Made by a program: the position numbers and the translations under genes. From a virus, in IMG/VR virus record IMGVR_UViG_3300034121_001222, positions 1 to 28,909 of that record: DNA of 28,909 nt. One strand, given 5' to 3'. Under the pieces are notes generated by a model, which saw nothing but the letters and a program-made list of their open reading frames with translations, did no database searches and had not been told where the DNA came from. This document shows positions 1,771 to 18,179 of the stretch, piece after piece; positions within the stretch are counted from its first letter, which is position 1; each line of letters begins with the position of its first letter.

Positions 1771-1780
1771 GGCTATTATT

Positions 1781-2323
1781 TCAATAGTTTAAAAATCTAA
1801 CATCATATACCCAAAGGCCATACCGTTCAATTATAGCTATCAGCGCCTCTGCATACTTTGGGTTCGTCGCATAGCCTGCTTTCTTCAAACCTTTTGCCCA
1901 TTTGCGGTATTCCATCCGGTCAAGTTTTAAAAGGTGCTTGTAGCGGTCACAGGTAAGTAGTTCAGAATGCGCCCGGTAACTTCGCCAGGCTGATTTGAAT
2001 ACTTGAAAACGGTCTTTTGGGCTGTCATCTTTGTACACCGCATACTTCCCTTTACCTTTCCACTTCATGCCAAAGTGATTATTGTGTTTGCGGCTTAGTT
2101 CTGATCTACCTGCATTACTTTCTATAATGCCCTGAGCAAGCGTTATGCTCACAGGTATATTGTATTTGTCGGCCTCAGCTTTTGCAGTGCTTAAAAAGCG
2201 GTTTATGTAACTGCTAACGTGTTTCGGTATCTTTACCTTGCCTTTGACATTTGCAGGTGTTGCCAATGGTCGGGATGCGCTGATAAGGAATAGCGCAAAG
2301 AATAGGATTAGGATGTTTTTCAT
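1781..2323 (-). CDS. secreted GH73-type glucosaminidase (endolysin)
   Basis: A 180-residue peptidoglycan hydrolase of the FlgJ/GH73 N-acetylglucosaminidase type, which cuts the glycan strand. An N-terminal signal peptide (about residues 1-22, MKNILILFFALFLISAS) suggests Sec export instead of passage through a holin pore. The family signature 'SITLAQGIIESNAGRSELS' (59-77) places the catalytic acid at Glu68; the 'NNHFGMKWKG' motif (81-90) and the C-terminal 'YATNPKYAEALIAIIERYG' also fit the family. Start ATG 2323 overlaps the upstream stop (ATGA). A host-type autolysin is the alternative, but the phage operon context favours lysis. Confidence 0.9.
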   Translation of the reverse strand: MKNILILFFALFLISASRPLATPANVKGKVKIPKHVSSYINRFLSTAKAEADKYNIPVSITLAQGIIESNAGRSELSRKHNNHFGMKWKGKGKYAVYKDDSPKDRFQVFKSAWRSYRAHSELLTCDRYKHLLKLDRMEYRKWAKGLKKAGYATNPKYAEALIAIIERYGLWVYDVRFLNY

Positions 2324-2514
2324 TCTGTTTGGTTTTTATAATATTCAATTAGCGTATCGGCAATATCCTTTACTTCATAATTTTCCAAATCAATGTATGC
2401 AAAATTGCCATCTTGCTCAATCTGAATTTGAATGCCATGTTTGTCAATTACAATTTTGAACATTCTTAAAGCAAGCCTATCATAATCGGCAACCAATAAT
2501 TTTTCTATTGTCAT
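2320..2514 (-). CDS. small hypothetical protein
   Basis: A 64-residue acidic soluble protein (MTIEKLLVADYDRLALRMFK..., 'YIDLENYEVKDIADTLIEYYKNQTE'). Probable small alpha-beta fold with no recognisable motif. Overlaps both neighbours by ATGA, lying between the SPOR-like exported protein and the GH73 hydrolase, so it is co-translated with them. Function unknown. Confidence 0.7.
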   Translation of the reverse strand: MTIEKLLVADYDRLALRMFKIVIDKHGIQIQIEQDGNFAYIDLENYEVKDIADTLIEYYKNQTE

Positions 2515-2807
2515 ATCTCGCTAAACAATTTAGTAAGTTTCAAAATCTGTTCATCGGTACGCTTTACAATAATTGCCCCGCTCCATTGTTTTAACCAGCT
2601 TGTGTGATAGATCATGGCATCCTCATAGCTTTCATACACAAACAGGATCCTAAACCATTCTCCCGACTGCTCAACCATTGCTGTGTCGGGGAGGATAGAA
2701 ATCATTTCGGGTTTAAGTAGTTCCGGATTGCGAGTTGCGCAAACCTGCACACAGTATTTCTGTGCGCATAGTTGCAAGGATAGGAGAAGGAATAGGATAG
2801 TTTTCAT
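2511..2807 (-). CDS. exported SPOR-like protein
   Basis: 98 residues with a signal peptide (MKTILFLLLSLQLCAQ, probable cleavage after the Ala-Gln region; the lipobox is not canonical). The mature part begins 'KYCVQVCATRNPELL', continues with 'EQSGEWFRILFVYESYEDAM' and ends with a buried strand before 'KRTDEQ'. That order (aromatic-x-VQV strand, G-x-aromatic-R-I strand, E-D-A helix) resembles the SPOR fold, which binds denuded peptidoglycan glycans. It sits two genes upstream of the GH73 hydrolase in the same operon, so it may recruit or regulate wall-cutting activity in the periplasm. The SPOR assignment is by pattern only. Confidence 0.7.
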   Translation of the reverse strand: MKTILFLLLSLQLCAQKYCVQVCATRNPELLKPEMISILPDTAMVEQSGEWFRILFVYESYEDAMIYHTSWLKQWSGAIIVKRTDEQILKLTKLFSEI

Positions 2808-2809
2808 AG

Positions 2810-3001
2810 TTAAATAGATGGTTCGATAAGTGTTAAAAAATCTTCAGATACCCAAATTCCGTTCCCATCAGCTAAGAGGTAAAGAAAGTTGTATTTGTAA
2901 CCTAATTTAATGTCTACGATTGTGCGAGGTTCGTCTGATAATTGTGTTGTGACAATGTCACCAATTTCAAACTTAGATGTGAACGTGAATGTGAAGGTCA
3001 T
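2810..3001 (-). CDS. small SH3/KOW-like hypothetical protein, first gene of lysis-type operon
   Basis: A 63-residue protein. 'FEIGDIVTTQLSDEPRTIVDIKLGYKYNFLYLLADGNGIWVSEDFLTLI' has the pattern of a small beta barrel (IGDIV...I..I......Y.L...G..W..E..L). The N-terminus carries an alternating TFTFTFT run. It is the first gene after the promoter at about 3050, with a leader of about 40 nt. Function unknown; such small barrels often occur as accessory phage proteins. Confidence 0.7.
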   Translation of the reverse strand: MTFTFTFTSKFEIGDIVTTQLSDEPRTIVDIKLGYKYNFLYLLADGNGIWVSEDFLTLIEPSI

Positions 3002-3030: not shown

Positions 3031-3057
3031 GTTCCGTTTAATTGTTGTACAAATGTA
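3031..3057 (-). promoter_or_regulatory. promoter and leader box of lysis-type operon (TACATTTG-N12-ACGGAAC)
   Basis: On the minus strand a perfect -7 box TACATTTG (3057-3050) is followed 12 nt later by ACGGAAC (3037-3031). The same arrangement recurs at 12227-12201 and, with one -7 mismatch, at 18022-17996. A weak TATG lies 19 nt upstream in place of TTTG. Transcription would start near 3044 and feed the gene beginning at 3001. Confidence 0.75.
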
Positions 3058-3075
3058 TAACAGTTTTCTGTTATA
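3056..3075. promoter_or_regulatory. operator O1, TATAACA-N6-TGTTATA
   Basis: Perfect inverted repeat TATAACAG / CTGTTATA with TTTT between the arms. It overlaps the 5' edge of the minus-strand -7 box, so a bound protein would block the lysis-type promoter. The same operator, with the same spacer except one base, lies at 14319-14346. A degenerate third copy with the identical right side (TTTTCTGTTATA, 3118-3129) lies just before the head operon. Confidence 0.8.
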
Positions 3076-3117
3076 TCATAATATTATGAACATTATTTTG
3101 CACTATTTGAATAAATA

Positions 3118-3133
3118 TTTTCTGTTATAATTG
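3118..3133 (+). promoter_or_regulatory. half operator plus weak -7 box before the head operon
   Basis: TTTTCTGTTATA (3118-3129) is identical to the right side of O1 and O2; its left arm is degenerate. TATAATTG (3126-3133) matches TAnnTTTG with one mismatch and lies 18 nt before the protease ATG at 3152. This is a plausible start point for head-gene transcription, but weaker than the other promoters. Confidence 0.45.
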
Positions 3134-3151
3134 TACAAATTCAAATTTGAT

Positions 3152-4300
3152 ATGTACCAATTTAAAGCTGAAGCGGCTGAAATGCTGATTGATGGTGAAA
3201 TAGATTCTTTTTGGGGCCAAAATCTGAAGTATCTTGATCTTGATTTGCAAGGTGCTAAAGATGTAAAAATATTATTGAATAGCTCCGGCGGTCAAGTAAC
3301 AGAAGGCAATGCAATTGCAGACCGTTTACGCTATCATGGTCAAAATAATAATGTTGAAATCGTTGTTTGTGGCCTTTGTGCGTCAATAGCAACAATGATT
3401 CATGCAGCAGGAAGCAAAGGTAGCCGTAAAATGACTGCTAATTCTTTCTACATGATACATAATACAGCGGTTGTTGCCATGGGTGGTTCTTCAGAACTTC
3501 GCAACCTTGCCGATACCCTAGACACAATGACCAATGTGATAGCTGAAAACTATGTTGATGTTATAGAAAGCAATTCAAAGCTAATAAACGGAAGCAGAGA
3601 AGAAACAAAAACAATGATTCTTGCCTACATGGCCAAAGAAACTTGGTTTTCTGCCCAGCAAGCTTTGGAAATTGGGCTGATAGATGCAATAGAAGACTTT
3701 AAGGCATACATCACACCGGAGAGTGCACCGGTTATAAAAAATCAAATTCGTAATTGTACAAACGTACCTTCAGAACTTATGAATGAACTAAACAACAATA
3801 TCACAGCAGAAGAAAAAACGCTGTTTCAAAAGTTTTTGGCATTTTGCGGCTTTGCACCAAAATCGGAATATCATACCGAAGAAAAAAAGCCTGATCAACA
3901 AATTGATAATTTAGAAAATCCTGAAAAAATGACTGATGAACAAATGATTGAAGCTCTTAAGGCTGCTGGATATAAAGTAGAAATCGAAGCGCCGGAAGAA
4001 GAAGAAGTTGTTACTGAAGAAACGGTAATGACTGAAGAAGAAATGATGGCAGCACTGGAAGCCAAAGGTATGAAAGTTAAAAAACCTGAAACTGAAGCAG
4101 TTACAAACGAAATCAAACAACTTCGTGAAGAAATTGCCCGCATCAAACAAGGTGAAAGAAAAACACAGGTAGTTGCAAAAACTGAAACTACTGAAAATCT
4201 TACACGCAGAGAAAGAGCATTGAAAGAATTTACTGCTAAGAATGCAAAGATGCTTGATAATGCTGCAAAATCTATTAAGGTAAAACTTAACGGAGAATAA
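3152..4300 (+). CDS. ClpP-like prohead protease with scaffold-like C-terminal region
   Basis: A 382-residue protein from ATG 3152; an upstream TTG reading at 3131 falls in the promoter and is unlikely. Residues about 10-190 are an S14/ClpP-type serine protease: 'LNSSGGQVTEGNAIADRLR' (oxyanion strand), nucleophile Ser78 in 'GLCASIATMI', and catalytic His103 in 'YMIHNTAV'. Such proteases mature HK97-type proheads and cleave scaffold. From about residue 210 the protein becomes acidic and helical, with two copies of a 17-residue unit (260-276 and 293-309) and a coiled coil near 'EIKQLREEIARIKQGE', which suggests a fused scaffold. Internal ATGs at 3779 or 3929 could give separate scaffold, as lambda C/Nu3 does. 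The major capsid gene follows one gene later. Confidence 0.9.
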   Translation: MYQFKAEAAEMLIDGEIDSFWGQNLKYLDLDLQGAKDVKILLNSSGGQVTEGNAIADRLRYHGQNNNVEIVVCGLCASIATMIHAAGSKGSRKMTANSFYMIHNTAVVAMGGSSELRNLADTLDTMTNVIAENYVDVIESNSKLINGSREETKTMILAYMAKETWFSAQQALEIGLIDAIEDFKAYITPESAPVIKNQIRNCTNVPSELMNELNNNITAEEKTLFQKFLAFCGFAPKSEYHTEEKKPDQQIDNLENPEKMTDEQMIEALKAAGYKVEIEAPEEEEVVTEETVMTEEEMMAALEAKGMKVKKPETEAVTNEIKQLREEIARIKQGERKTQVVAKTETTENLTRRERALKEFTAKNAKMLDNAAKSIKVKLNGE

Positions 4301-4332
4301 AAACAATTTTCAAACAAACAAATATTATAATC

Positions 4333-5034
4333 ATGTCTATACAATTCTTTAAAAAAGCGGCCGTAAATCCTTTTGTTAAGGCTAACAGCGGTGGTATTGT
4401 TTTAAGAGGTGCAAAAGTAGGTTATAGCACTGAAGCTCCAACATTCAATGTTGTTATTGCTGCTGCCGGTAACTCTGCAACTTTTACTCTGAACTCTGCT
4501 AACCAAGCACAGTTTGAATTTATTCGTTACAACATCACAGATTCAGCTGGTAATGGCAATGGTGCTGTTTATGTAACTGGTACTGAAACTTTGAACATCA
4601 CAACTGTTTCTAAGGCTTACAACGGTCCAGGTCCCGACGCAAGTATTGAAATTGTTTACAAGTTGGTAGGTCAGGAGCAAGTTCTTTCTTACAGCATCAA
4701 TTTGGATTCAGCTTCTTTGGTTGCAGGTATCACAGTGAACACACTGAACGCTCTTGATAGCGACAACAGAGGTGCTTACTTAGAAGTTGCTGCTGTCTAT
4801 GACTCACCTAACACAGAAACTGATGTTATCATAACTGGTGCAATCGGTCTTGTAGGTTTCACTATTGAAGCTAAGGTAAATGGTGTTACTAATACTGGTG
4901 TTGTTGGTACTGATGGTGAAGTTACTATTGTAGTAAATGGTTCACTTTCTGCTGGTACTTATGTTGTAACTGCAAGAGTAACCAATGCAGGTTCTGAGTA
5001 CGGTAGTTTCCAAACAGTATCTTTAACTGTATAA
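4333..5034 (+). CDS. beta-rich virion protein, decoration or Ig-like
   Basis: A 233-residue Ser/Thr/Val/Asn-rich protein with few charges and almost no Cys. The sequence is all-beta in character; the C-terminal 80 residues ('VIITGAIGLVGFTIEAKVNG...GEVTIVVNGSLSAGTYVVTARVTNAG') look like an Ig-like or bacterial Big-type domain. It lies between the protease and the major capsid gene, where capsid decoration proteins often sit (gpD position). It may be a head decoration or surface-adhesion protein. Function is inferred from position and composition only. Its base composition is somewhat richer in highly used codons, in line with strong expression. Confidence 0.75.
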   Translation: MSIQFFKKAAVNPFVKANSGGIVLRGAKVGYSTEAPTFNVVIAAAGNSATFTLNSANQAQFEFIRYNITDSAGNGNGAVYVTGTETLNITTVSKAYNGPGPDASIEIVYKLVGQEQVLSYSINLDSASLVAGITVNTLNALDSDNRGAYLEVAAVYDSPNTETDVIITGAIGLVGFTIEAKVNGVTNTGVVGTDGEVTIVVNGSLSAGTYVVTARVTNAGSEYGSFQTVSLTV

Positions 5035-5063
5035 TTTTTTAACTCAAAATTTTTTATTAGAAA

Positions 5064-6059
5064 ATGGAATCACTAAATATAAAGTTAAATTCACAGCAGG
5101 CTATTGACATCATGTTCGAGCCTGTATTCGTGGACAAAGATATGATGGCAGACTTTGCTATTATAAAAAATCTGTATGCAGGTGAATACAGAATTGGTTT
5201 GCTTTCTGCGCTGAAAAACGTAGTTGGTAAATTGCAGCCATGCAGCCCGAAATACAAGGGCAAAAGCACAATGTCTGAGCGCTCACTTGTTGCTCAGTAT
5301 GTTGAGGCAGGCACAAAAATGTGTTATGAGGAGTTCATTAACACTTACTATGACTTGCTTGCACCGCTTTACACAACTGCAAACGGCAATCCTGACCTTA
5401 GCACTTTGTTGAATTTGCTTACACTGCAACTTGGCCAAGGTATCAAGCGTGACGTAAACCGTGCTGCATGGTTCGGTGATGTTGCAAGTGCTGATGAAAA
5501 TTTGAACTGGGCTGATGGTGTATTCAAAAACCTTGACGCAGCAGTAACACTTGGTACAATTGGTGCTTACACTAACTCAAACCAAGGCACACAGCTTACC
5601 AATCAGCAAAGCTATGAGCTTTTGCAAGATGTTGTAAATGCTGCACCTGCTGCACTGAAGACAATGCCGGCTACTGAAAAAATCATTCACATGAGCGGTT
5701 TGCTTTGGGATCAGGTAATTACCTTCCTTGAAGATTCAGCGGTGACCAATGGTTTCATCAGAGTTTTTGAAGAAGACAGAGGTGGAATTTCGGGAACATA
5801 CAGAGGCATCAAAATTAAAGCACATTACGAATGGGATGAAATCTCTCAGGAGTACTTTGGCACTGTTGACCAAAACAAAATTGTTTACACTGCGGTGGGC
5901 AATATGGTTATTGGTACAGATTTGCGCGCTGATGCATCCGGTGGAGCTTCATTCTTTAAGGTTTACCAAAACCCTGAGACAGATGAAATCACCCTTCGTG
6001 CAAAGTTTGTTTTCAACACAAATATCGTTTGGCCGGAACTGTTCTCAGTAGGCCTTTAG
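5064..6059 (+). CDS. major capsid protein, HK97-fold type
   Basis: A 331-residue protein at the expected place after the prohead protease and before the portal. Length and layout fit a HK97-fold capsid subunit: a long N-terminal helix region, a central 'AAWFGDVASADENLNWADGV' segment, the helical 'QSYELLQDVVNAAPAALKTM' spine-like region, and beta strands in 'GTYRGIKIKAHYEWDEI' and the C-terminus 'LRAKFVFNTNIVWPELFSVGL', typical of Bacteroidetes phage capsids. No long N-terminal delta domain is visible, consistent with scaffold being supplied by the fused region of the upstream protease. A hairpin follows the stop at 6068. The assignment rests on position and overall pattern. Confidence 0.85.
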   Translation: MESLNIKLNSQQAIDIMFEPVFVDKDMMADFAIIKNLYAGEYRIGLLSALKNVVGKLQPCSPKYKGKSTMSERSLVAQYVEAGTKMCYEEFINTYYDLLAPLYTTANGNPDLSTLLNLLTLQLGQGIKRDVNRAAWFGDVASADENLNWADGVFKNLDAAVTLGTIGAYTNSNQGTQLTNQQSYELLQDVVNAAPAALKTMPATEKIIHMSGLLWDQVITFLEDSAVTNGFIRVFEEDRGGISGTYRGIKIKAHYEWDEISQEYFGTVDQNKIVYTAVGNMVIGTDLRADASGGASFFKVYQNPETDEITLRAKFVFNTNIVWPELFSVGL

Positions 6060-6067
6060 TCATAAAG

Positions 6068-6097
6068 TGGGGAGTTTAAACGCTCCCCATTATTTTA
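6068..6097 (+). terminator. possible terminator or mRNA-stabilising hairpin after capsid gene
   Basis: Stem TGGGGAG / CTCCCCA with an 8-nt loop, followed by ATTATTTT. The U tract is weak, so partial termination or 3'-end protection of the capsid mRNA is likelier than a full stop. Confidence 0.6.
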
Positions 6098-6121
6098 AAA
6101 CAAATACATTCTTATAATAAT

Positions 6122-6661
6122 ATGGCAATTACAGCAGGTTTAACAACATCGTGCAATAAATCATGTGCAGGTGGTGTAAAAAGATTATGGATAGCTAACT
6201 TCGACGATATTGCATCTATCACTTTTGATGGTACTGACCAAATCACTGGTATCACTATGGTAGCTACAAAGGTATTTTACGAAGTGCAGTTGAAGCGTAA
6301 CAGCAAATCTTTCACAGAGCAATTTAATGTTTCAGATGATGGATGTAACAATTCATTGACTCAGACATTTACAGGAAACGGCCAATGCCGTGACCAAGAT
6401 ACAAGACAATTCTTGCTTGAGGCCGCAAAGCAATCTTGCTGCGGTATCATAGTTTTACATGAAGAAAACAACGGTCAAGTTGTAGGTTGGGGATTCTTTG
6501 ATGACCTTAACGCTCGCCTTGGTGGTGGTACTCAAATCACTACCGGTACCAACTTAACGGATCCTTCACAAATAACCCTTGAACTTATTTGTGATACAGT
6601 TGTAGATGGTGCTGCTACTGTCTTCACTCCTGGCGTTGCAGGCATCTTAGCGCTTGTTTAA
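6122..6661 (+). CDS. tube-like virion protein, Cys-rich
   Basis: A 179-residue beta-rich protein beginning MAITAGLTTSCNKSCAGGVK. The pattern 'GGVKRLWIANFDDI...ITMVATKVFYEVQLKRNSKSFTEQFN...QTFTGNG' and the late 'GWGFFDDLNARLGGGTQITTGTNLTDPSQITLELICD' resembles major tail tube proteins of Bacteroidetes phages. It carries seven Cys (SCNKSC, DGC, GQC, SCC, IC), unusual for a tube subunit. It sits between the capsid and portal genes, away from the tail module, so a neck or head-surface role is an alternative. It is flanked by hairpins on both sides, suggesting a separately balanced transcript level. Confidence 0.65.
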   Translation: MAITAGLTTSCNKSCAGGVKRLWIANFDDIASITFDGTDQITGITMVATKVFYEVQLKRNSKSFTEQFNVSDDGCNNSLTQTFTGNGQCRDQDTRQFLLEAAKQSCCGIIVLHEENNGQVVGWGFFDDLNARLGGGTQITTGTNLTDPSQITLELICDTVVDGAATVFTPGVAGILALV

Positions 6662-6695
6662 TTTTTGTAAAATACTGGAGGTATTTCAATCTAAG

Positions 6696-6720
6696 GGCAG
6701 GTATCACTACCTGCCTTTTT
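6696..6720 (+). terminator. intrinsic terminator after tube-like gene
   Basis: Stem GGCAGGTA / TACCTGCC with a TCAC loop, followed by five T. A smaller hairpin (AATAC / GTATT) precedes it at 6671-6685. No strong promoter is visible before the next gene, so read-through must feed the portal genes. Confidence 0.8.
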
Positions 6721-6733
6721 AAAATTTATTACT

Positions 6734-6967
6734 ATGATAAAGGTAAAAGAAAAATATAAAGGTTACAATGTACCATACAAAGACAAAACTTTAGGTACTT
6801 TGCAGGGTGATGACCTTAAAAAATATATTAAAGCGTTCCTTTACAGCAAAAAGCCAAATGACATTTTGATATATTTTGATAACACTATTGAAGAGTTAAC
6901 AGAATTTGCAGAAAGTGCACCAAAAAAGGCTATCAAGAAACCTGTAACACCTGAAATCAAAGAATAA
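6734..6967 (+). CDS. small head-module protein
   Basis: A 77-residue basic protein (MIKVKEKYKGYNVPYKDKTL...), with a Pro/Lys/Ala-rich tail 'ESAPKKAIKKPVTPEIKE' that is probably flexible. Its stop overlaps the portal start by one base (TAATG at 6965-6969), so the two are coupled. Position between capsid/tube-like genes and the portal suggests a minor head or assembly protein. Not recognised as a named family. Confidence 0.75.
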   Translation: MIKVKEKYKGYNVPYKDKTLGTLQGDDLKKYIKAFLYSKKPNDILIYFDNTIEELTEFAESAPKKAIKKPVTPEIKE

Positions 6968-8448
6968 TGAACAACAAGCCAAAGCCAAAAAATAACTTTT
7001 CTATGCAGATAGGGGGAAGAGCCGACGAGGTTGTTCTTCCAAAAGATTTATATTTTGAGAATAGTGACCCAACAAGGGCTTTGTTTGGCTTGTTTGATTA
7101 TTTACCTTTTGTTCGTGAGGGTGAACTTGAGCAATTGATAGCACTTATAAATAATAGCCCGACAGCAAAAGCAATTTGCAATAAAGTTGCTTACTATACT
7201 GTTGGTGAAGGCTTTTTTGTAAGAAAAGAAAAATCTGTATTGGGTGAAAAGTCTGCACAAATACTATCAGCAGAACAAAAAAACATTCTTTGGGCAGTTC
7301 TTAGCCGGCAGAATAGTGATGGCGATACAATACTTGATGTGTGCAAAAAATCTGCTTATGACTACCAAGCAATTGGCAATTCATTCACCAGGTTAGATGT
7401 TGTTTCAGGCTTCGTTTTCGCTTCACATCAAAACTTAAACTTTGTTAGGCCTTTCAGATCAACTGATTTAAAAACAAGGTTCTATGGCGTATCGGCCGAT
7501 TGGTCAATAATTCCATATACTGGGCGCAGTAGAGGGTATGAAAGTTACTCACAACTGGATATTCCTGCAACGATAAAAGATGTGGCAGCATACCCAATAT
7601 TTACTGATGAACTTGATGAACTTGAAGAGAGTGAGTTTGGCCAAGGTGCTAACCTTGCCGATCTGTACGGCTATGATAAGTCTTCAATGCTTCAGTTAAA
7701 GCAGTATAGTCCTTTGATGTATCAATGGGGTATTCCTAACTGGATAGGTGCAAAGCATTTTGTTGAACTTGAATACAGGATTGCAAAGTTTAATGTTTCA
7801 AGGTTTCGCAATGGCCTAACATCATCAGGACTATTGCAGCTTTTTGGCGATTTATCACCTCAGGAGCAGGCCGATTACCAAGAAGCGTTTATGGAAAAGA
7901 TGACCAATACCGGAAACGATTTTAAGGTAATATTCCAAATACTTGAAAACCCTGAATTAAAAGCTAACTGGGTACCGTTTGAGCAAACATATAACGGTTA
8001 CTTCATGGAATTATCTGAGATTAGCAAAGATAGGATTGCAACAGGCTTTGAAATACCTTTGAGTTTAATTCAGGCAACACCCGGGCAGCTTGGTGGAAAT
8101 CAGCAGATCCGCTCTGAATTTGAAATCCTTTACAGAACTAAAATTTATGATATTCAACAAACAATTCTAAGAGGCATTGTAAAACCTTATCTTGATACGA
8201 TAGCAGAAACTGAAGGGCATGAATTTTTGAGAACTGTTGAGCTTGATTTTATAAATATTGTTCCGGTTTCTTTTGCTGGTGATATCAAAATTGATAGCAT
8301 ACTTACACAAACTGAAGCAAGAGAAATCTTAGGCTATGCCCCAACAGCTGAAACGGTAATTACAGAAGAACAAGCTGATGTAAAAGCCGAACAACCAACA
8401 TCTATTATAGCAAAAATTAAAAACATATTAAGATGGGGCAATTCATAA
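6967..8448 (+). CDS. portal protein
   Basis: A 493-residue portal, the dodecameric ring at one capsid vertex through which DNA enters and leaves. Features that fit are the 'PTAKAICNKVAYYTVGEGFFV' N-terminal crown region, 'YRIAKFNVSRFRNGLTSSGLL', 'QEQADYQEAFMEKMTNTGNDFKVIF' and the conserved 'GYFMELSEISKDRIATGFEIPLSLIQ' stem region, followed by a helical stretch 'SEFEILYRTKIYDIQQTILRGI'. The length is usual for PBSX/SPP1-like portals. It overlaps the downstream connector gene by 16 nt. It lies more than 14 kb from the terminase genes, whereas most phages keep terminase and portal adjacent. Confidence 0.88.
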   Translation: MNNKPKPKNNFSMQIGGRADEVVLPKDLYFENSDPTRALFGLFDYLPFVREGELEQLIALINNSPTAKAICNKVAYYTVGEGFFVRKEKSVLGEKSAQILSAEQKNILWAVLSRQNSDGDTILDVCKKSAYDYQAIGNSFTRLDVVSGFVFASHQNLNFVRPFRSTDLKTRFYGVSADWSIIPYTGRSRGYESYSQLDIPATIKDVAAYPIFTDELDELEESEFGQGANLADLYGYDKSSMLQLKQYSPLMYQWGIPNWIGAKHFVELEYRIAKFNVSRFRNGLTSSGLLQLFGDLSPQEQADYQEAFMEKMTNTGNDFKVIFQILENPELKANWVPFEQTYNGYFMELSEISKDRIATGFEIPLSLIQATPGQLGGNQQIRSEFEILYRTKIYDIQQTILRGIVKPYLDTIAETEGHEFLRTVELDFINIVPVSFAGDIKIDSILTQTEAREILGYAPTAETVITEEQADVKAEQPTSIIAKIKNILRWGNS

Positions 8449-8999
8449 AGGCATTAGAAGTTGTGAGAGGTGGCTACATTCGCATAAGTCCAACAGATAC
8501 GCAGTTTGACCCTAATCTATTGGCACCATATTGCGATAATGCAGAACGTAGATATATACGTGATGTAATTGGTGCAGCGTTTTTTGATGAGCTAAAAGCA
8601 AATAGAACTCCCAACATCATAAATTACAATTCTACCTTTGGAGCAATACAACCAGCTTTTGCTGATGCTGATTTGGAAAACTTGTTTTTGAATGGTAAGT
8701 TGTTTGATTTGATAGGGTATGCAGTTGTTGAAGAATCTTTAAGCTTTGCCCATTTTAAGATAACAAGTGCCGGGGTGCAGATAACGCAAGCTAATTTTGC
8801 AACAGCAGCAACTGGCAATGATATGAGATACTTGAAAGATACAATGAAAGACAAAATACAATTCTTGCAAAAGGAAGTTATTGATTTTCTTTGTGACAAT
8901 TCTGCTTTGTATACACCTTTTGATTTTGACCCTAATTTATATTGCAAGACTTGCAAACCAAAAAATAAAAATATTTCTACACTTCCAATAATTTACTAA
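8433..8999 (+). CDS. head-tail connector-like protein
   Basis: A 188-residue, largely helical protein (CDNAERRYIRDVIGAAFFDEL..., 'FLNGKLFDLIGYAVVEESLSFAHFKI', 'MRYLKDTMKDKIQFLQKEVIDFL'). It starts inside the end of the portal gene (16-nt overlap), the usual place for the first neck or adaptor protein that docks onto the portal ring. The C-terminus carries a Cys-x2-Cys (CKTC). Similar proteins follow the portal in many Bacteroidetes phages. Connector role is inferred from position and helical pattern. Confidence 0.7.
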   Translation: MGQFIKALEVVRGGYIRISPTDTQFDPNLLAPYCDNAERRYIRDVIGAAFFDELKANRTPNIINYNSTFGAIQPAFADADLENLFLNGKLFDLIGYAVVEESLSFAHFKITSAGVQITQANFATAATGNDMRYLKDTMKDKIQFLQKEVIDFLCDNSALYTPFDFDPNLYCKTCKPKNKNISTLPIIY

Positions 9000-9001
9000 A
9001 A

Positions 9002-10762
9002 ATGAATAAGCAATTTGCAGAATTAAAAGTTTTTGAACTTGGCGGTATAGCTTTTTGTGAAGCAACAGAAACACTACCTTTTTTGGTTTTACCAAAAGGC
9101 CAAGCAACCATCAAGCCATGGGGCCCATCGGGTTTTGTTTTTGAAAACATTATCACAGGTGATGTAGTTGCCTTTGTTTCTGAATATGATGACATTTTAG
9201 ACAGTGCCGGTTCCGCTTATGGCGCTACACAATTAGATGTAATTACTGCTTTAGCTGCTTTTTTTTTTGAATTAGGCGGTGGAGCTGCTGGTGATCTTGC
9301 AAGTGTTTTAATTGCTGGCAATGCATCAGGTGCTAATGATATTAACTTTGATATAAATCAAGGTATTTATTTTGCCAATACTTCAAGGCTTAGAGAAGGA
9401 AAGATTGACGCAGGATTAGGCGGTGCTAAAGGTATTGCTCAAATCTGTGCTGTTGGCTACGAATTGAAATGGGAAGCTGGTCGGTTGTATGTGATGGATG
9501 GGACTGGTGATAAAATTAGATGGTCTTTGTACAATTTTGATATTGCTCCTGATGTAAATGATGATTCTACAAAAGGCTATTATGTTGGAAGTAGATGGAC
9601 TTTAGACGATGGTACTGTTTATGTTTGCTCTGATGTTACAACAGGGGCTGCTGTTTGGGCGATTCAGAAATATAATTTTATAGGTTTTGACACAGCCGCA
9701 GCGCATACAGTTACTGAAGGCGAACTTGCGTGGAATGATGCAGACGGCACTTTGGACTTAGGCCTAAAGGGTGGAAATGTAACGCTACAAATCGGGCAAG
9801 AGCAGATTGTGAGAGTAGTTAATAAAACAGCTACAAACGTAAACTTGTTAGAAGCTAACTATCAGGCAGTGCGAATAACAGGCGCACAAGGGCAGAGGCT
9901 TAAAGTAGATTTAGCACTTGCAACAACTGACGTTCTAAGTGCTGAAACGATTGGCTTAGTTACTGAAACAATAAATAATAATCAACAAGGCTTTGTTACT
10001 GTAAGCGGATTGGTGCGAGGTATAAACACAACAGGTTCTTTGCAGACAGAAACATGGGCGGATGGTGATATTCTTTATCTCAGCCCAACAACAGCGGGTA
10101 ATATTACAAATGTAAAACCAATTGCACCAAATCATTTAATCGTTATTGGTTATGTTGTTTCTGCTCATATTACACAAGGTTCAATTTACGTCAAAGTTGA
10201 TAACGGCTATGAGCTTGATGAATTGCATAATGTAACCATTGCAACGCCTGCAAACAATGATGCATTGATTTATGAAACATCAACAGCACTTTGGAAAAAT
10301 AAGACCATCGGCGGCTGGAATTACATTGAAAAAACTGCAAATCATGATGTTACAAATACTATTATACCACAAGATGACCCTGAATTGCAGTTTTCGGTGG
10401 TTGCAAATGGTAGTTATATGGTTGAATTTGATTTTTGTTGGAGTGGAAATAACGCAACAGGAGATTACCAAGGCAATTTTGCTATAACAGCAGGTACTAT
10501 GTCAGGCTATGGATTAGTTATTAGTTCAACATCAACTACGCCTATTTTATTACCTGCAAACAATGCAGTAAGCGCAGGTTTAACAAATTTTAACCTTGCT
10601 TCAACAAATATTACTTTTTTAATGACATGTAAAGTTCAATTTAATTTCACATGTACACAAAATGCAACTTTTAAATATCAATTAAGAAATGTTGCGGCAT
10701 CAGTTGGAGCTACTTCTCGCACTTGGAAAGGTGCAATTCTAAAATATAAAAAGATAAACTAA
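9002..10762 (+). CDS. virion fibre or receptor-binding protein
   Basis: A 586-residue modular fibre. Residues 1-80 form an N-terminal anchor-like domain; about 95-270 contain repeated beta segments ('GYYVGSRWTLDDGTVYVCSDVTTGAAVWA', a carbohydrate-binding-like module). Residues about 270-410 match the common fibre segment 'GLVTETINNNQQGFVTVSGLVRG...WADGDILYLSPTTAGNIT', and the C-terminal 150 residues are a beta-rich, probably receptor-binding, jelly-roll-like domain. The gene lies in the head module, so it could be a neck or head fibre instead of a tail fibre. A T10 run at 9259-9268 (codons 86-88) could switch it off by slippage. Confidence 0.75.
   Translation: MNKQFAELKVFELGGIAFCEATETLPFLVLPKGQATIKPWGPSGFVFENIITGDVVAFVSEYDDILDSAGSAYGATQLDVITALAAFFFELGGGAAGDLASVLIAGNASGANDINFDINQGIYFANTSRLREGKIDAGLGGAKGIAQICAVGYELKWEAGRLYVMDGTGDKIRWSLYNFDIAPDVNDDSTKGYYVGSRWTLDDGTVYVCSDVTTGAAVWAIQKYNFIGFDTAAAHTVTEGELAWNDADGTLDLGLKGGNVTLQIGQEQIVRVVNKTATNVNLLEANYQAVRITGAQGQRLKVDLALATTDVLSAETIGLVTETINNNQQGFVTVSGLVRGINTTGSLQTETWADGDILYLSPTTAGNITNVKPIAPNHLIVIGYVVSAHITQGSIYVKVDNGYELDELHNVTIATPANNDALIYETSTALWKNKTIGGWNYIEKTANHDVTNTIIPQDDPELQFSVVANGSYMVEFDFCWSGNNATGDYQGNFAITAGTMSGYGLVISSTSTTPILLPANNAVSAGLTNFNLASTNITFLMTCKVQFNFTCTQNATFKYQLRNVAASVGATSRTWKGAILKYKKIN
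9259..9268 (+). repeat. T10 homopolymer in fibre gene
   Basis: Ten consecutive T (GCT TTT TTT TTT GAA) at about residues 86-88. Either shifted frame meets a stop within three codons, so gain or loss of one T would leave only the N-terminal anchor. This is the kind of tract used for phase variation. Confidence 0.7.
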
Positions 10763-10763
10763 A

Positions 10764-11066
10764 ATGGCACTACTACTCTCAAAAAACACAACACAAATAA
10801 ACGTACAAGGTACAGACATTGAGCTCAGCTCTGTCTATGTTCGTATTGTTTTCACTTGTCAGCTCGATGGTTCCCTTACTATCACGTACAAAACTTATTT
10901 AAACTTTGATCAGTTTTTGGCAGGCAAAGAAATTGCAACCGACATACAAAATATGACTTACAACTTTGTGATTTTGGAAACAGAAACACAGTCTTTGGAT
11001 ATTGCTTTGCTTTATATGCAGCAGGTATTTATTGAATTGGGGTATACTGCTGAAATCGTAGCATGA
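10764..11066 (+). CDS. small protein downstream of fibre, possible fibre accessory
   Basis: 100 residues, beta-strand-rich first half (LELSSVYVRIVFTCQLDGSLTITYKTYLNF) then a helical end (YMQQVFIELGYTAEIVA). It starts 1 nt after the fibre stop and overlaps the next gene by ATGA. Small genes directly after fibres are often fibre chaperones or accessory baseplate proteins; that is inference from position. No recognised motif. Confidence 0.75.
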   Translation: MALLLSKNTTQINVQGTDIELSSVYVRIVFTCQLDGSLTITYKTYLNFDQFLAGKEIATDIQNMTYNFVILETETQSLDIALLYMQQVFIELGYTAEIVA

Positions 11067-11590
11067 AAAAGGTAGGAATCTTAGACAATGATGAAAAAGA
11101 AGCACTGGAGGGGCAGCAATATGCCCCTAACAGATTCTTTACGCCTTTGCAGGATGCCGACAAAAACTATGTATTGCCTTTAAATCAAATAACAAACTGT
11201 AAAAATATAAAATTTTGGTGGGTAAAACATCTGCCTTTAATTGAATACAAACCTACTAAAATGGACAAAACTTTGATACCTGATGTTTTAGCATTAAGCG
11301 GCCTATTTCTTTTCACTGGCGCCGAGGTCGGAATAGAAAACACAATACTCGAAATCATTAGCAAATTCGGAGTGGTTGCTGTACTTTGGTATTGGCTGCA
11401 AAACATGAAGACACAGATAAAGGAGCAGATGACGCACTTTAGTGTAGAAACAGAAATGCTGAGGAAGGAACACAAAGAAACGCTAACAGACTTTCACGAG
11501 ATACACAAGGAGCACAAAGACCTGATGAAACAACAAATCGAAGTAAAAGACCAAATCATAAGAGATCTGCAAAGCAAAATCAAAGGATAA
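11063..11590 (+). CDS. membrane protein with coiled coil, holin-like; possible fusion
   Basis: 175 residues in two parts. Residues 1-65 ('NRFFTPLQDADKNYVLPLNQITNCKNIKFWWVKHLPLIEYKP') look like a separate small soluble domain. From Met67 (ATG at 11261) the protein has one or two hydrophobic helices (about 72-89, and 95-112 with 'IISKFGVVAVLWYWL'), followed by a charged coiled coil rich in K and E to the end. The second part resembles BhlA-type holins. Restart at 11261 could give a separate 109-residue holin-like form. It is the last gene of the head operon and is followed by a strong terminator. Confidence 0.7.
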   Translation: MKKVGILDNDEKEALEGQQYAPNRFFTPLQDADKNYVLPLNQITNCKNIKFWWVKHLPLIEYKPTKMDKTLIPDVLALSGLFLFTGAEVGIENTILEIISKFGVVAVLWYWLQNMKTQIKEQMTHFSVETEMLRKEHKETLTDFHEIHKEHKDLMKQQIEVKDQIIRDLQSKIKG

Positions 11591-11592
11591 AA

Positions 11593-11622
11593 AAAATGCC
11601 TCCCGGTTGTGGGAGGCATTTT
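11593..11622. terminator. strong bidirectional terminator
   Basis: Perfect 12-bp stem AAAATGCCTCCC / GGGAGGCATTTT with a 6-nt loop and A/T tracts at both ends. It separates the head operon (+) from the convergent minus-strand gene ending at 11625. Confidence 0.95.
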
Positions 11623-11624
11623 AG

Positions 11625-11858
11625 TTACAAGTGATACTTTTCATTCATATATTCCTCTGCGGTTTTTATATCCAGCTTAGAATTTAGGATGCCTTCAATA
11701 TAAGCCGTTCTAAGGGCTTCCTTTTCATCTGTCAAGCATTTAGACGCAAAGCGTAAAAAGTCACGGCCTGTGTCTGTATAAACATCAAATAAGCGAGGTT
11801 GGTGCTCTTCCAAATATCTGCACAGCTTTTGGATAGGTAATAAATTTTCGTTTTCCAT
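11625..11858 (-). CDS. small hypothetical protein
   Basis: A 77-residue helical soluble protein (MENENLLPIQKLCRYLEEHQ..., 'FLRFASKCLTDEKEALRTAYIEGILNS'). Last gene before the terminator at 11593-11622, 13 nt after the gene above it. No motif recognised; a small early phage protein of unknown role. Confidence 0.7.
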   Translation of the reverse strand: MENENLLPIQKLCRYLEEHQPRLFDVYTDTGRDFLRFASKCLTDEKEALRTAYIEGILNSKLDIKTAEEYMNEKYHL

Positions 11859-11871
11859 TTTGTTTTAGGGT

Positions 11872-12171
11872 TTACATTCGTGATTCATAGTATTCATCTA
11901 TTTGGTATTCTGCACGCTGCTCTTCAATCAGTTCTAAGCAAAGTTCGCCAATTTCGTACTCGTCGCTGCCAAGAAATTCCAACTGCTGTTCATGCTCTAA
12001 GCTATTGTTGAAATAATCGGTTGTCATTTCGTCGAAGTCTTCGACTAATCTGATGTTGTAAATCATATACTCTGCCGGTTCGTTTGGTTCTTCACGATTG
12101 CGTGAAGTGTAACCTGCATAATATTCGCCTTCAACTTCGATGTGCTTGCCGTTAATTGTGATAGTCATCAT
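11872..12171 (-). CDS. small acidic hypothetical protein
   Basis: A 99-residue, very acidic protein (MMTITINGKHIEVEGEYYAG...). The ATG at 12171 (or 12168) was chosen because a longer reading from TTG at 12222 would begin inside the -7 box TAGATTTG. Beta strands at the start and an acidic helical end ('GELCLELIEEQRAEYQIDEYYE') suggest a DNA mimic or protein-binding factor as one possibility; this is speculation from charge. It is the first gene after promoter P2, with an approximately 45-nt leader. Confidence 0.75.
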   Translation of the reverse strand: MMTITINGKHIEVEGEYYAGYTSRNREEPNEPAEYMIYNIRLVEDFDEMTTDYFNNSLEHEQQLEFLGSDEYEIGELCLELIEEQRAEYQIDEYYESRM

Positions 12172-12200
12172 GATAGATAGTTTTAAAATGTTTAGATGTT

Positions 12201-12227
12201 GTTCCGTTCTTTGTTGATACAAATCTA
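12201..12227 (-). promoter_or_regulatory. promoter P2 (TAGATTTG-N12-ACGGAAC)
   Basis: Minus-strand -7 box TAGATTTG (12227-12220) followed exactly 12 nt later by ACGGAAC (12207-12201), as at 3057-3031. The shared downstream text continues with ATCT and AAACAT. It drives the two small genes ending at 11625. Confidence 0.75.
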
Positions 12228-12252
12228 CGGCTAATATTTTATATAATCTAAC

Positions 12253-12276
12253 TTTATATAAAATATTTTATATAAA
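12253..12276. promoter_or_regulatory. 24-bp perfect palindrome upstream of P2
   Basis: Arms TTTATATAAAAT / ATTTTATATAAA with no spacer. A further ATTTTATATAA copy lies at about 12237-12247, making a cluster of three half-sites. It lies 26 nt upstream of the P2 -7 box, a position suited to an activator or repressor. The base composition is AT-rich, but 24 perfect bases are unlikely by chance. It differs from the TATAACA operator. Confidence 0.6.
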
Positions 12277-12292
12277 ATGTAAAATAAATTAG

Positions 12293-12320
12293 AAAGGCCA
12301 CAACCGAAGTCATGACCTTT
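12293..12320 (-). terminator. hairpin with UUCG tetraloop after exonuclease gene
   Basis: On the minus strand AAAGGTCATGAC - TTCG - GTTGTGGCCTTT forms a 12-bp stem with GU wobbles and a stable UUCG tetraloop, followed by CTAATTTATTTT. It lies just after the exonuclease stop at 12325, so it probably ends the RecT operon, though the U tract is loose. Confidence 0.75.
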
Positions 12321-12324
12321 ATTA

Positions 12325-13218
12325 CTAAACATTCCTAAACATCGACACTTTACCATCATTTACGTGCTCAACACGTTCTTCCAGGCTTTCGTAATATTCC
12401 TGCGCCAAGCCTACATAAATTCTAATCAGTTGCTCATGTTCCGGTAAACATTCAACCGGGTAGATTCTCATGCGGTCGGCTATATCCGGAAACTTAGCCT
12501 CAAAATCAAACATATCTTGCACTTCCTGCACAAATTCTGTTGGCATTGTATCGGCCCAGTCATTGCCATCATTGACAAACATTATTTTGGCCTGTTTGAG
12601 CACCTGTTCTTCGGTTGGGTTCATCAATACCCTAATTACTGCACCGCTTTCAATGTTGCCCCCTTCCAATTCGTTTATAAGCATCTTATACCCTCTTATC
12701 TGCCATTCGTACAAAGCCAATTCAGATTCTTCCTGCAGTAACTTTAAGCCAGTAGGATCCCAAACGTTTTTTTGGTCGAACACAAAGCGTTTTACCTTCC
12801 AATCGTAGCCCCTTGTTTTAAGGTAATCATTGCGCATAAACTTCTCAGGTGCCTTTGTGGCAAATTTATAGCCTAAGTACTGCCCAACTTCCCGGATGCT
12901 GCGCTGCTCTAACAAGTTACCCTTTTCAGTGTAGATGTTAGTGAAAGTTTTTTTGAAGCCAAAGCGATCTTTGATAAATTCGTCTTCAATAAATGTCTTA
13001 GCACCTTTGGAAAGCTGCGGAACTAAGATAGTATCACGCTTTGCAATCAGTTCTTGCATCGTTTGTTCTTGTTTGTCGGTGCGCTTGTCTTTGGTAAGCA
13101 GTGTTTCTAAGTCACGCTGCTGGGCTGCGGTCAATATTGCGGCACCCGGCAAAGCTGCCCCGGACATAATGCGTCCGAAGGATGAGCAGCTAAATCTTTT
13201 TACTTGTTCGTTTTTCAT
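12325..13218 (-). CDS. YqaJ-type PD-(D/E)XK exonuclease, RecT partner
   Basis: A 297-residue 5'-3' exonuclease-like protein. The N-terminal 'RFSCSSFGRIMSG' (8-20) is the usual opening of the family. 'EKGNLLEQRSIREVGQYLG' holds the helical acidic residue Glu104. The core reads 'GYDWKVKRFVFDQKNVWD': Asp139, then Asp148-Gln-Lys150, which aligns with the D...DxK metal site. 'YEWQIRGYKMLINELEGG' matches the family's Q-x2-Y/G helix. The third motif is DQK, not the ExK common elsewhere. With RecT in the same operon it forms a two-component exonuclease/annealase for single-strand annealing recombination. Its distance from RecT (one small gene between) is normal. Confidence 0.8.
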   Translation of the reverse strand: MKNEQVKRFSCSSFGRIMSGAALPGAAILTAAQQRDLETLLTKDKRTDKQEQTMQELIAKRDTILVPQLSKGAKTFIEDEFIKDRFGFKKTFTNIYTEKGNLLEQRSIREVGQYLGYKFATKAPEKFMRNDYLKTRGYDWKVKRFVFDQKNVWDPTGLKLLQEESELALYEWQIRGYKMLINELEGGNIESGAVIRVLMNPTEEQVLKQAKIMFVNDGNDWADTMPTEFVQEVQDMFDFEAKFPDIADRMRIYPVECLPEHEQLIRIYVGLAQEYYESLEERVEHVNDGKVSMFRNV

Positions 13219-13230
13219 GATGTTTAGTTT

Positions 13231-13449
13231 TTAATGAACTCTTAAATATCTTGCATACGTTTCAACAACTTCAATATCAATTTGCCTATATTTTTGCAGG
13301 TCGGGCTTTTTTTCTGCGAATGCGGCCCCGTACTTTTTTACCCATTCTCGGTATTCAATCATAAAATCACCAAAAGTCTTGGAATCCATTTGAATAGAAT
13401 AAGCATCAGGCATTATATCAATCCAAAAATCTAATATTTCCTTTATCAT
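13231..13449 (-). CDS. small protein between RecT and exonuclease
   Basis: 72 residues, mostly helical (MIKEILDFWIDIMPDAYSIQ..., 'MIEYREWVKKYGAAFAEKKPDLQKYRQID'). It starts 5 nt after the RecT stop and ends 12 nt before the exonuclease start, so it is in the same transcript. Role unknown; a recombination accessory protein is possible from position only. Confidence 0.7.
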   Translation of the reverse strand: MIKEILDFWIDIMPDAYSIQMDSKTFGDFMIEYREWVKKYGAAFAEKKPDLQKYRQIDIEVVETYARYLRVH

Positions 13450-13454
13450 AATTC

Positions 13455-14285
13455 TTAGTTTTTTAAGTAATCAATTTGCTCCGGGTACAAATCATAAAGT
13501 GCAGTAACATCTGCAAGTGTGCAATTGCCTGCACTGATTTCGTTCTTTGCCTCTTCAAGCTGCTGTTCTGTAATTAAAGGAAGTTCATCTACTGAGTCGG
13601 AATTGTCGACATACTGAACTGTTGTTCCTGTTTCATCTTTGATAACAGCAGAATCCGTTCTTACTGCCGTTTGCATTTCAATGCTAAGTATACCCCACTT
13701 AGATAGCATATTCTTTAGAACTGTCTTCATTGCCATAGCATCAAAATCAGTTTTCCATGGGCCATTGTTGAATGATTGGGAAAATCTTTTGCCATGGTCT
13801 TCTGCCTGCTTTTTTGTCCAGTAAACAGTTTTCTCATATCCGTTATGCAAACATAAATATGCAGCATAGCCTACAACTACGCCCTGCGGTTCAAGGCTAA
13901 AATCAGCGTTCAATTCCTCTGTAAGGTAATTAAAACCTTTGAATTGGTTCTCATACACTTTTGTCACATTGATGCGCTTATACTGCCCTGTACGCTGTGC
14001 AAGCTGTACGTAACCTTTCCAACCCATTTGGAATTGTGCAGCACCTTTATAAGGTACTATCCAGGCAAAGCCAAGATTTTGGTTGATTGGTAAGTCAAGT
14101 GTTGCGGCAATCATTGCAGCATTGTAAATTGTCATTGCATCGGCCTTAGCAAGCAAAGCATTGTTTGTGCTGATCTGCAGAACGGAAGTAATAAAACCCT
14201 GAGATTTTTTACCAAGCATCTGCTCAAATTTCTGTTTTACTGCATCCTTTTCAAAGATACTTTTTACTGTAAGTTGGTTTGACAT
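13455..14285 (-). CDS. recT: RecT-family single-strand annealing protein
   Basis: 276 residues. The ATG at 14285 (MSNQLTVKSIFEKDAVKQKF) was chosen; a longer TTG reading from 14330 falls within the operator/promoter. Family features: 'FITSVLQISTNNALLAKADAMTIYNAAMIAATLDLPINQNLGFAWIVPY' and 'QFQMGWKGYVQLAQRTGQYKRIN', then 'TKKQAEDHGKRFSQSFNNGPWKTDFDAMAMKTVLKNMLSKWG', all strong RecT signatures. The C-terminal ~50 residues are acidic and helical. It anneals ssDNA made by the downstream exonuclease. It is the first gene after the divergent O2 promoter, so is probably controlled with the HTH gene. Confidence 0.93.
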   Translation of the reverse strand: MSNQLTVKSIFEKDAVKQKFEQMLGKKSQGFITSVLQISTNNALLAKADAMTIYNAAMIAATLDLPINQNLGFAWIVPYKGAAQFQMGWKGYVQLAQRTGQYKRINVTKVYENQFKGFNYLTEELNADFSLEPQGVVVGYAAYLCLHNGYEKTVYWTKKQAEDHGKRFSQSFNNGPWKTDFDAMAMKTVLKNMLSKWGILSIEMQTAVRTDSAVIKDETGTTVQYVDNSDSVDELPLITEQQLEEAKNEISAGNCTLADVTALYDLYPEQIDYLKN

Positions 14286-14318
14286 AAATATTTTATTTAA
14301 AAGTGAATAAATGTTATG

Positions 14319-14346
14319 CAAATATAACACTTTTCTGTTATATTTG
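14319..14346. promoter_or_regulatory. divergent promoters with shared operator O2
   Basis: Perfect 11-bp arms CAAATATAACA / TGTTATATTTG with spacer CTTTTC. Each arm contains a -7 box TATATTTG, one on each strand (14339-14346 plus; 14326-14319 minus). One bound dimer would therefore cover both the HTH and RecT promoters. The plus promoter has TATG 20 nt upstream. The core TATAACA-N6-TGTTATA is the same as O1 at 3056-3075. Confidence 0.85.
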
Positions 14347-14382: not shown

Positions 14383-14592
14383 ATGACAACTTATGAAATG
14401 ATTAAAGAACGTGCAAAGTTATCCGGGCTTAGCCTTGTGCAGCTATGTCTTAGGGTAGGCATAGCGCGCGAAACACTGGAGAACTGGAAGGAGAAGGAAC
14501 CCAAGACCCTGGTGATTCTTCAAAAAATAAATGATGTTTTGGCAAATGCAGAAGAGGAAAAGTTCAACCAAACAATCAAACGCAATGACTAA
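14383..14592 (+). CDS. XRE-like HTH regulator, candidate O1/O2 binder
   Basis: A 69-residue single-domain DNA-binding protein: 'MIKERAKLSGLSLVQLCLRVGIARETLENWKEKEPKTLVILQKINDVLANAEEEK' has the five-helix layout of Cro/XRE proteins (L-x2-G-L-S...L....G-I-A-R-x-T-L-x-N-W). Its small size is Cro-like. It is the first plus-strand gene after operator O2, so autoregulation plus control of RecT and, via O1, of the lysis operon is the simplest model. That it binds these operators is inference. It overlaps the HNH gene by 8 nt. Confidence 0.8.
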   Translation: MTTYEMIKERAKLSGLSLVQLCLRVGIARETLENWKEKEPKTLVILQKINDVLANAEEEKFNQTIKRND

Positions 14593-15193
14593 AAGAATTT
14601 GGACTGACAAAGAAGCTAAAAAATTGACAGCACTTTACCCGGTTACTTCACACCTGGAACTGATGAAAATCTTTAAACGATCTTCAGCATCAATTTATGG
14701 CAAAGCGGAATTGTTAGGCCTTAGTAAGGATCCGGAATACATGGCCGAACTTAAAAAAGTATTTGTTGCCAACCTTGTCGAAGGTGGTAAAAAAACAAGG
14801 TTTGGTAAAACTGAAAGTTGGAACAAGGGAACCAAGGGTATAATGAAAGCCAATTCAGGTACCTTTAAAAAAGGCCGACTGCCCCACAACACCCGGCAAC
14901 ATGGTGAAGAATCATTTGATAAGGACAATCATATTCTTGTTAAAATTGGTCACAATCACTGGGTAAAAAAACATTTTCTTCTTTGGGAATCGGTAAATGG
15001 AAAAGTTCCCAAAGGCATGGTGCTGCGGTTTAAAAATGGTAATCCGCACGATATTAGGATTGATAACTTGCAAGTTATAACCAAGGCAGAGAATATGCAA
15101 AAAAATGTTGTTCACCATTATCCTGCAGAACTAAAGCAAACAATCAAATTAGTAAACAAACTTAAAAAAACTATCAAAGATGTTAAAAAATAA
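14585..15193 (+). CDS. HNH-type protein with N-terminal DNA-binding domain
   Basis: 202 residues from ATG 14585; a longer reading from 14531 lies within the HTH gene. Residues 2-46 ('RIWTDKEAKKLTALYPVTSHLELMKIFKRSSASIYGKAELLGL') read as a Myb/SANT-like HTH. A basic Gly/Asn linker follows ('FKKGRLPHNTRQHGEES'). The C-terminal half is HNH-like: 'HWVKKHFLLWESVNGKVPKGMVLRFKNGNPHDIRIDNLQVITKAENM'. The usual middle His is replaced by Phe in 'LRFKNG', as in a Bacteroidetes subfamily, so cutting activity is uncertain. It may be a free-standing homing endonuclease or a phage DNA-processing enzyme. Confidence 0.8.
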   Translation: MTKRIWTDKEAKKLTALYPVTSHLELMKIFKRSSASIYGKAELLGLSKDPEYMAELKKVFVANLVEGGKKTRFGKTESWNKGTKGIMKANSGTFKKGRLPHNTRQHGEESFDKDNHILVKIGHNHWVKKHFLLWESVNGKVPKGMVLRFKNGNPHDIRIDNLQVITKAENMQKNVVHHYPAELKQTIKLVNKLKKTIKDVKK

Positions 15194-15407
15194 AATAGGT
15201 GATCTCAGAAACTTGCTGTTTGCTCAGCTTGAAAGACTATCTGATGACGATTGTGATATTGAAATGGAAACAACCAGGGCCAAAGCAATGGCACAAATAG
15301 CAGTTGTTATTGTGAACAGTGCAAAGGTCGAAATTGATTTTCTTAAAATGCACGGTAATGAAGGTGCCGGCACAGGGTTTATTCCAATTGAGGCGCCGAG
15401 GGATTAA
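15180..15407 (+). CDS. small hypothetical early protein
   Basis: 75 residues: 'FAQLERLSDDDCDIEMETTRAKAMAQIAVVIVNSAKVEIDFLKMHGNEGAGTGFIPIE'. Helical, with a conserved-looking 'AQIAVVIVNSAKVEIDFLK' core common next to HNH genes in Bacteroidetes phages. It overlaps the HNH gene by 14 nt. No function known. It ends the first early segment; the following 160 nt contain a promoter and structured leader. Confidence 0.75.
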   Translation: MLKNKIGDLRNLLFAQLERLSDDDCDIEMETTRAKAMAQIAVVIVNSAKVEIDFLKMHGNEGAGTGFIPIEAPRD

Positions 15408-15446
15408 AAATATTTAGAAAAGCTACCTACTTAATAAAATTGTTTT

Positions 15447-15569
15447 TATATTTGTGGTATAGTTTTGCAGATGGGTGGAAGCAACTTCAAAACCAATGAA
15501 AAAAATATATACACATAACCGTATTAATCAATGGCGTCTTCCACCGCCGGAGATTGGTACGGTTTTTTT
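15447..15569 (+). promoter_or_regulatory. promoter and pseudoknot-forming leader RNA (copy B)
   Basis: A -7 box TATATTTG (15447-15454; a second, TAGTTTTG, at 15460-15467) precedes GGTGGAAG (15474-15481), the exact complement of CTTCCACC in the loop of a downstream hairpin (15538-15545). The hairpin (15517-15564) is 7 bp (AACCGTA/TACGGTT), 6 bp with two GU, a 2x2 AA/GA internal loop, then 5 bp and an 8-nt loop. It ends in seven T directly before the ATG at 15570. Copy A at 18060-18159 has the same architecture and internal loop with different sequence. It could act as an attenuator or ligand/protein-sensing leader. Confidence 0.75.
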
Positions 15570-17212: not shown

Positions 17213-17214
17213 CT

Positions 17215-17361: not shown

Positions 17362-17364
17362 AAA

Positions 17365-17865: not shown

Positions 17866-17917
17866 ATTTTTTTTATTGAACTTTATATTCTAAATTTGTA
17901 CCAGGTTAATAAATGGT

Positions 17918-17974: not shown

Positions 17975-17995
17975 TGATAGTTTTAGTTTTAAGAT

Positions 17996-18034: not shown

Positions 18035-18035
18035 A

Positions 18036-18067: not shown

Positions 18068-18081
18068 TAGTATAATAGTTC

Positions 18082-18159: not shown

Positions 18160-18179
18160 ACCTTTTAATGTATCTATGT

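Follow-up and report, generated by a model that had tools for sequence, protein, structure and literature searches.

The Cro and CI proteins of lambda and 434 are small proteins of the XRE fold, with symmetric operators, three per control region, that lie between divergent early promoters. In the actinophage phiC31, a larger repressor is associated with conserved inverted repeats at several early promoters. Phage repressors with dispersed operators are already known from the repressor-stoperator system of the Cluster A mycobacteriophages L5 and Bxb1, in which one repressor serves dispersed sites, and the consensus of these sites and the repressor diverge together between groups of phages (PMC6550527). 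The system described here joins them. It is found in the IMG/VR phage record IMGVR_UViG_3300034121_001222, which was analysed over its whole length of 28,909 nt (the window), and comprises a 69-aa helix-turn-helix (HTH) protein and two copies of the dyad TATAACA-N6-TGTTATA, named O1 and O2. This HTH protein is quite likely to be a stand-alone XRE/Cro-type repressor, which would act on both the early genes and an endolysin operon through these dyads.

As in lambda and 434, the protein is small and of the XRE fold, the symmetric operator lies between divergent early promoters, and autoregulation is predicted, although each control region has a single dyad rather than three, the records searched yielded no partner repressor, and a second copy of the operator lies ~11 kb away, at the endolysin operon. 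The likeness to phiC31 is one of description, in that one inverted repeat recurs at several early promoters, but phiC31 infects actinobacterial hosts, as an actinophage, and its repressor is larger than the HTH protein. The L5/Bxb1 system shares the presence of several dispersed sites per genome and a site consensus that tracks the repressor, whereas the present phages have 2–5 symmetric sites, each of which is at a promoter.

Both copies of the dyad are exact, and neither is assigned to a strand. O1 (TATAACAGTTTTCTGTTATA) occupies positions 3056–3075, between the leftward endolysin operon and clpP, and O2 (TATAACACTTTTCTGTTATA) occupies positions 14323–14342, between the promoters of the divergent recT and HTH genes. 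An earlier, sequence-only reading of the window had claimed this exact pair, and was right to do so, although its interval for the second copy, 14319–14346, is extended to 28 bp so as to take in the two -7 boxes, and the dyad proper is confined to 14323–14342. The window contains no further exact match, and the exact 20-mer did not appear in any of 200 shuffles of the window, while two perfect 7-6-7 dyads with a common arm arose in 2 of 200. The core TAACA-N6-TGTTA occurs twice, versus 0.08 expected from dinucleotide shuffles, none of which (0/100) reached two copies. The intergenic region between the sigma factor and terminase genes (21809–22032) was checked for extra sites of this class, and none was seen. 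Overlapping AT palindromes (TTTATATAAAATATTTTATATAAA and its neighbours) are found at 12238–12286, where the related contig L010 has a third operator (3987–4006).

The -7 consensus of the Bacteroidota is TAnnTTTG (PMC6847099), and the host of the phage apparently belongs to this phylum, judging from promoters of this type alone. As the sequence-only reading had proposed, the dyads overlap such boxes, with one abutting O2 on each strand. The box of the HTH/replication operon (TATATTTG, 14339–14346, plus strand) is at offset +14 from the core and that of the recT operon (TATATTTG, 14319–14326, minus strand) is at offset -6, and these offsets are found at the HTH/recombination site in nearly all the contigs of class A, that of the window, and of class B, described below. 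Given these offsets, a bound protein would cover approximately -26 to -11 of both promoters. O1 is abutted on the minus strand only, by the box TACATTTG (3050–3057; CAAATGTA, offset -8 from the core), which touches the dyad and faces the leftward operon. In both classes, then, a symmetric dyad at the HTH gene's own promoter overlaps core promoter elements at fixed offsets, in the manner of Cro/CI-type operators.

The conservation of the sites, on which the sequence-only reading depended, is borne out in close relatives, in which the class A dyad recurs at O1 or O2. It is found in the same or nearly the same form at O2 in L003, L004, and L008, as the near-identical TATAACATTATTCTGTTATG at the recT/HTH locus of L006, and in identical form at O1 in L071, and L005 carries an exact dyad 3' of its exonuclease gene. 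In the more distant RecT relatives (L014–L023, 66–74% identical), the dyad is missing and a different sequence stands before recT.

The class B relatives are ~75% identical to the window in clpP, ~83% in the capsid protein, and ~45% (39–48%) in the HTH protein, and carry the dyad TAATA-N6-TATTA at the position to the left of clpP in 15 of 15 contigs; it also precedes the HTH gene in each contig checked. A third site precedes the HNH-endonuclease operon and, in most of these phages, a fourth precedes a 105-aa gene upstream of the single-strand-binding-protein gene. The sequence-only reading had suggested a search of relatives for the operator at just two loci; class B has sites at both, plus a third, and usually a fourth, at other early promoters. 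The class B genomes contain 3–5 sites of their own class each, versus 0.04–0.12 expected, and the class A dyad is absent from them, save for a single stray match in G012. The two operators differ in one base pair per half-site (TAACA/TGTTA versus TAATA/TATTA), which is switched at all the sites together, and across the two sites of the window and the 3–5 of each class B genome the consensus tracks the class of the HTH protein.

The recombination genes beside this control region are not orthologous, being RecT and an exonuclease in class A versus exonuclease VIII and a Rad52-like protein in class B, yet the geometry of the dyad and the -7 boxes is the same, and the control region was therefore either kept or re-established while the genes under its command were exchanged. 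The exchanged modules can be compared at 13455–14285 in the window and 3054–4366 in L090.

A third class (C) is represented by ~45 contigs (L154–L215), gathered by a search with the class B exonuclease. These phages encode a 78-aa HTH protein of the same family, divergent to the exonuclease (exonuclease VIII) gene wherever the contig shows it, and the dyad TTAAAA-N5-TTTTAA lies at the HTH/exonuclease promoter, between abutting -7 boxes. No class A or B dyads were found in the class C contigs examined. In the tree of the HTH proteins, the three classes need just two changes, with A and C being well supported and B, as one side of a branch, only weakly.

The HTH protein of the window (14383–14592, plus strand) was modelled by AlphaFold2 with a mean pLDDT (predicted local distance difference test) of 87.6, and has the helical HTH of the 434, P22, and SinR kind, that is, the XRE/Cro-CI fold. 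The top Foldseek matches of the model were SinR, HipB, C-proteins, and 434 Cro, at TM (template modelling) scores of ~0.5–0.6 and with weak E-values, as expected because the domain is so small, and VIA-align gave Z values of 5–6 to SinR, 434, and P22 C2. The class B homologue of L090 passes PF13443 (HTH_26, 31.1 versus 22). Across the classes, the protein has 62–78 aa and a single domain, and its recognition-helix region reads G[IV][AS]RETLENW in class A, mostly GIH[KR]QTLD[KY]W in class B, and mostly VGRQT[VL]E[YH]W in class C. A further scan for relatives was saturated.

The class of the HTH protein and the dyads at both loci switch together, and the dyads overlap the -7 boxes, which supports the idea that a single regulator serves O1 and O2, the 69-aa protein being the most likely one. 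This protein would probably bind the TAACA-N6-TGTTA dyads as a dimer, and the overlap with the upstream edge of the host-type -7 boxes would make the repression steric. The occupation of O2 would block both divergent promoters, that of recT and the exonuclease leftward and that of the HTH and replication genes rightward, through which the HTH protein would also regulate itself, while a protein bound at O1 would block transcription of the endolysin operon to the left. There would be about one operator per early transcription unit, with two in the window and three or four in class B. The sequence-only reading had proposed the joint repression of recombination, the HTH gene, and the lysis genes, which fits this geometry, and it is from the geometry that repression is predicted; binding, dimerisation, and timing are likewise predictions. 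The scope that it gave to O2, recT and the HTH gene, is too narrow, given that the control region there would command virtually the entire early region, leftward and rightward.

A number of points weigh against this interpretation. O2 is degenerate in L005, and the window is the only class A contig in which O1 and O2 are both found. As each class consists of closely related contigs, the covariation of the HTH protein and the dyad represents about two independent class changes. In the class C genomes, the dyad is limited to the HTH promoter and is not found elsewhere above a reversed-pattern control, and the sharing of the operator with the endolysin operon is therefore a property of the A/B lineage. 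The HTH protein of the window, taken alone, also falls under the Pfam gathering scores (HTH_3, 15.8 bits versus 23), and the silencing of the endolysin operon together with the early genes would be oddly timed for a late shut-off of the purely Cro-like kind.

The binding of the dyads by the HTH protein is a prediction, and the dyads could be bound by some other protein, either a host factor or another phage regulator, with the HTH gene as a passenger, but this is quite improbable, given that the dyad class follows the HTH class in three classes, and that a dyad is always found at the HTH promoter. Being AT-rich and overlapping the -7 boxes, the dyads might also be features embedded in the promoter or in an RNA structure (an AT-rich -7 context or a terminator) rather than operators. 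This is scarcely credible when the two arms vary together at every site, and when each of the predicted start sites at O2 lies downstream of the dyad, which is therefore not transcribed from these promoters. At O1, a dual action, in which the HTH protein would repress the leftward operon and activate the clpP promoter ~70 bp away, would account for the 66–68 bp found between the dyad core and the clpP TATAATTG element in 17 of 17 contigs; the entire intergenic region is conserved in length, however, and activation is a conjecture, which makes this very improbable.

If the HTH protein is the repressor, its role may be that of a Cro, which builds up early and then silences the early promoters, including its own. 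This is plausible, if tentative, as the HTH gene heads the operon that its product would regulate, the protein is small (62–78 aa) and single-domain, and neither a second repressor nor an integrase was found in the records searched, but the endolysin operon would also be off late in infection, a puzzling outcome unless this operon is early or middle (in class B, a sigma factor is encoded there). Alternatively, a master repressor of the CI kind would keep every early and lysis function off while the phage persists in a carrier state or as a plasmid-like lysogen, with the operator classes as immunity groups. The recombination, replication, endolysin, and, in class B, sigma-factor promoters would be covered together, beyond the needs of a Cro, the operator classes look like heteroimmune groups, and the HTH protein (45%) is far more diverged than clpP (75%) or the capsid (83%). 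On the other hand, the records searched, which may be incomplete, contain no integrase (PF00589), serine recombinase (PF00239), ParA (PF13614), or S24-type repressor, and these absences are meaningful in class B because G002 and G014 look nearly full length by gene order, though the classification of the records is linear. The only ParB-like domain is fused to a methyltransferase, and a search by clpP for prophages of the lineage in the 84,980 genomes of the GTDB returned a single match, 32% identical, and no close relative, all of which leaves the CI-like role possible but rather doubtful. A search with the capsid protein for cultured relatives in 50,697 phage records gave no match. It is unlikely, though conceivable, that a lone repressor of 62–78 aa, unaccompanied by an integrase, a partner repressor, or a partition system, forms a minimal immunity or carrier-state circuit, which would control host-type early promoters and the endolysin/sigma-factor operon through at least two heteroimmunity-like operator classes in one otherwise conserved lineage.

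The leftward operon proposed to be under O1 (1331–3001, minus strand) contains open reading frames for 63-aa, 98-aa, and 64-aa proteins, the endolysin, a 66-aa protein, and an 80-aa membrane-like protein. Its description as a lysis operon is accurate insofar as it encodes an N-acetylglucosaminidase endolysin (1781–2323, minus strand; PF01832, E 8.6e-34; PHROG endolysin), but the majority of the genes in it are of no known function, and in relatives it includes a sigma factor. The sigma-70-family factor of the window (19805–20569, minus strand; PF04545 and PF04542) has an operon of its own, while in class B its homologue stands at the end of the O1 endolysin operon (L089, 1136–1900; L098, 15935–16696), and the factor would therefore be under the operator only there. 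To the right of O1, the first structural gene encodes a ClpP-type head protease (3152–4300, plus strand; PF00574, E 2.7e-25). At O2, the RecT recombinase (13455–14285, minus strand; PF03837, E 5.6e-45) is encoded at the head of the early operon that runs leftward, and its partner exonuclease lies at 12325–13218 (minus strand; PHROG 5715 exonuclease, E 4.2e-16). The replication genes 3' of the HTH gene (14531–19768, plus strand), identified by open reading frames and domain or PHROG matches, encode an HNH endonuclease, a replication initiator, a DnaC-like loader, and a ParB/MT-A70 methyltransferase. In the latter (18150–19301), the ParB-like domain is fused to an MT-A70 adenine methyltransferase, which is apparently in the operon 3' of the HTH gene and is inverted in L012.

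An operator half-site had also been claimed before the head genes, at 3118–3129. The sequence TTTTCTGTTATA is present, but it fails the covariation test, and has three mismatches to the 20-mer, a level that gives nine matches in the window versus 3.65 expected by chance. It forms part of a longer element, TTTTCTGTTATAATTGTACAAA (3118–3139, plus strand), which is retained in relatives with class B operators and reads TGTTATAATTGTGCAAA in most relatives. In the 15 class B contigs, this element has TGTTA in eight, TATTA in three, and another sequence in four, and L067 has the element of the window letter for letter together with class B operators, which argues against an operator half-site; the element more likely belongs to the promoter or leader of clpP. 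In L063 (2765), L065 (9776), and L089 (4744), the leader element has the sequence TAATATTTTTCTATTA and thereby makes up a complete class B dyad, at 52 bp from O1, which could be chance. On either side of the element, in the window (3098–3139) and in relatives, are the motifs TTTGCAC and GTGCAAA, the second of which is GTACAAA in the window, as a possible imperfect inverted repeat. The sequence TATAATTGTNCAAA was considered as a late-promoter motif common to the late genes and was rejected, as it is exact at clpP only, and matches with two mismatches are at chance level.

Gene regulation in the phages of the Bacteroidota is little studied, and a search of one library of papers for work on their operators found none of relevance. 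In the present case, a predicted regulator, an operator code in three variants, and the target genes are all readable from the sequence. Given this, the operator class could predict cross-repression between uncultured phages, and the system offers small repressor/operator pairs for promoters of the TAnnTTTG type.
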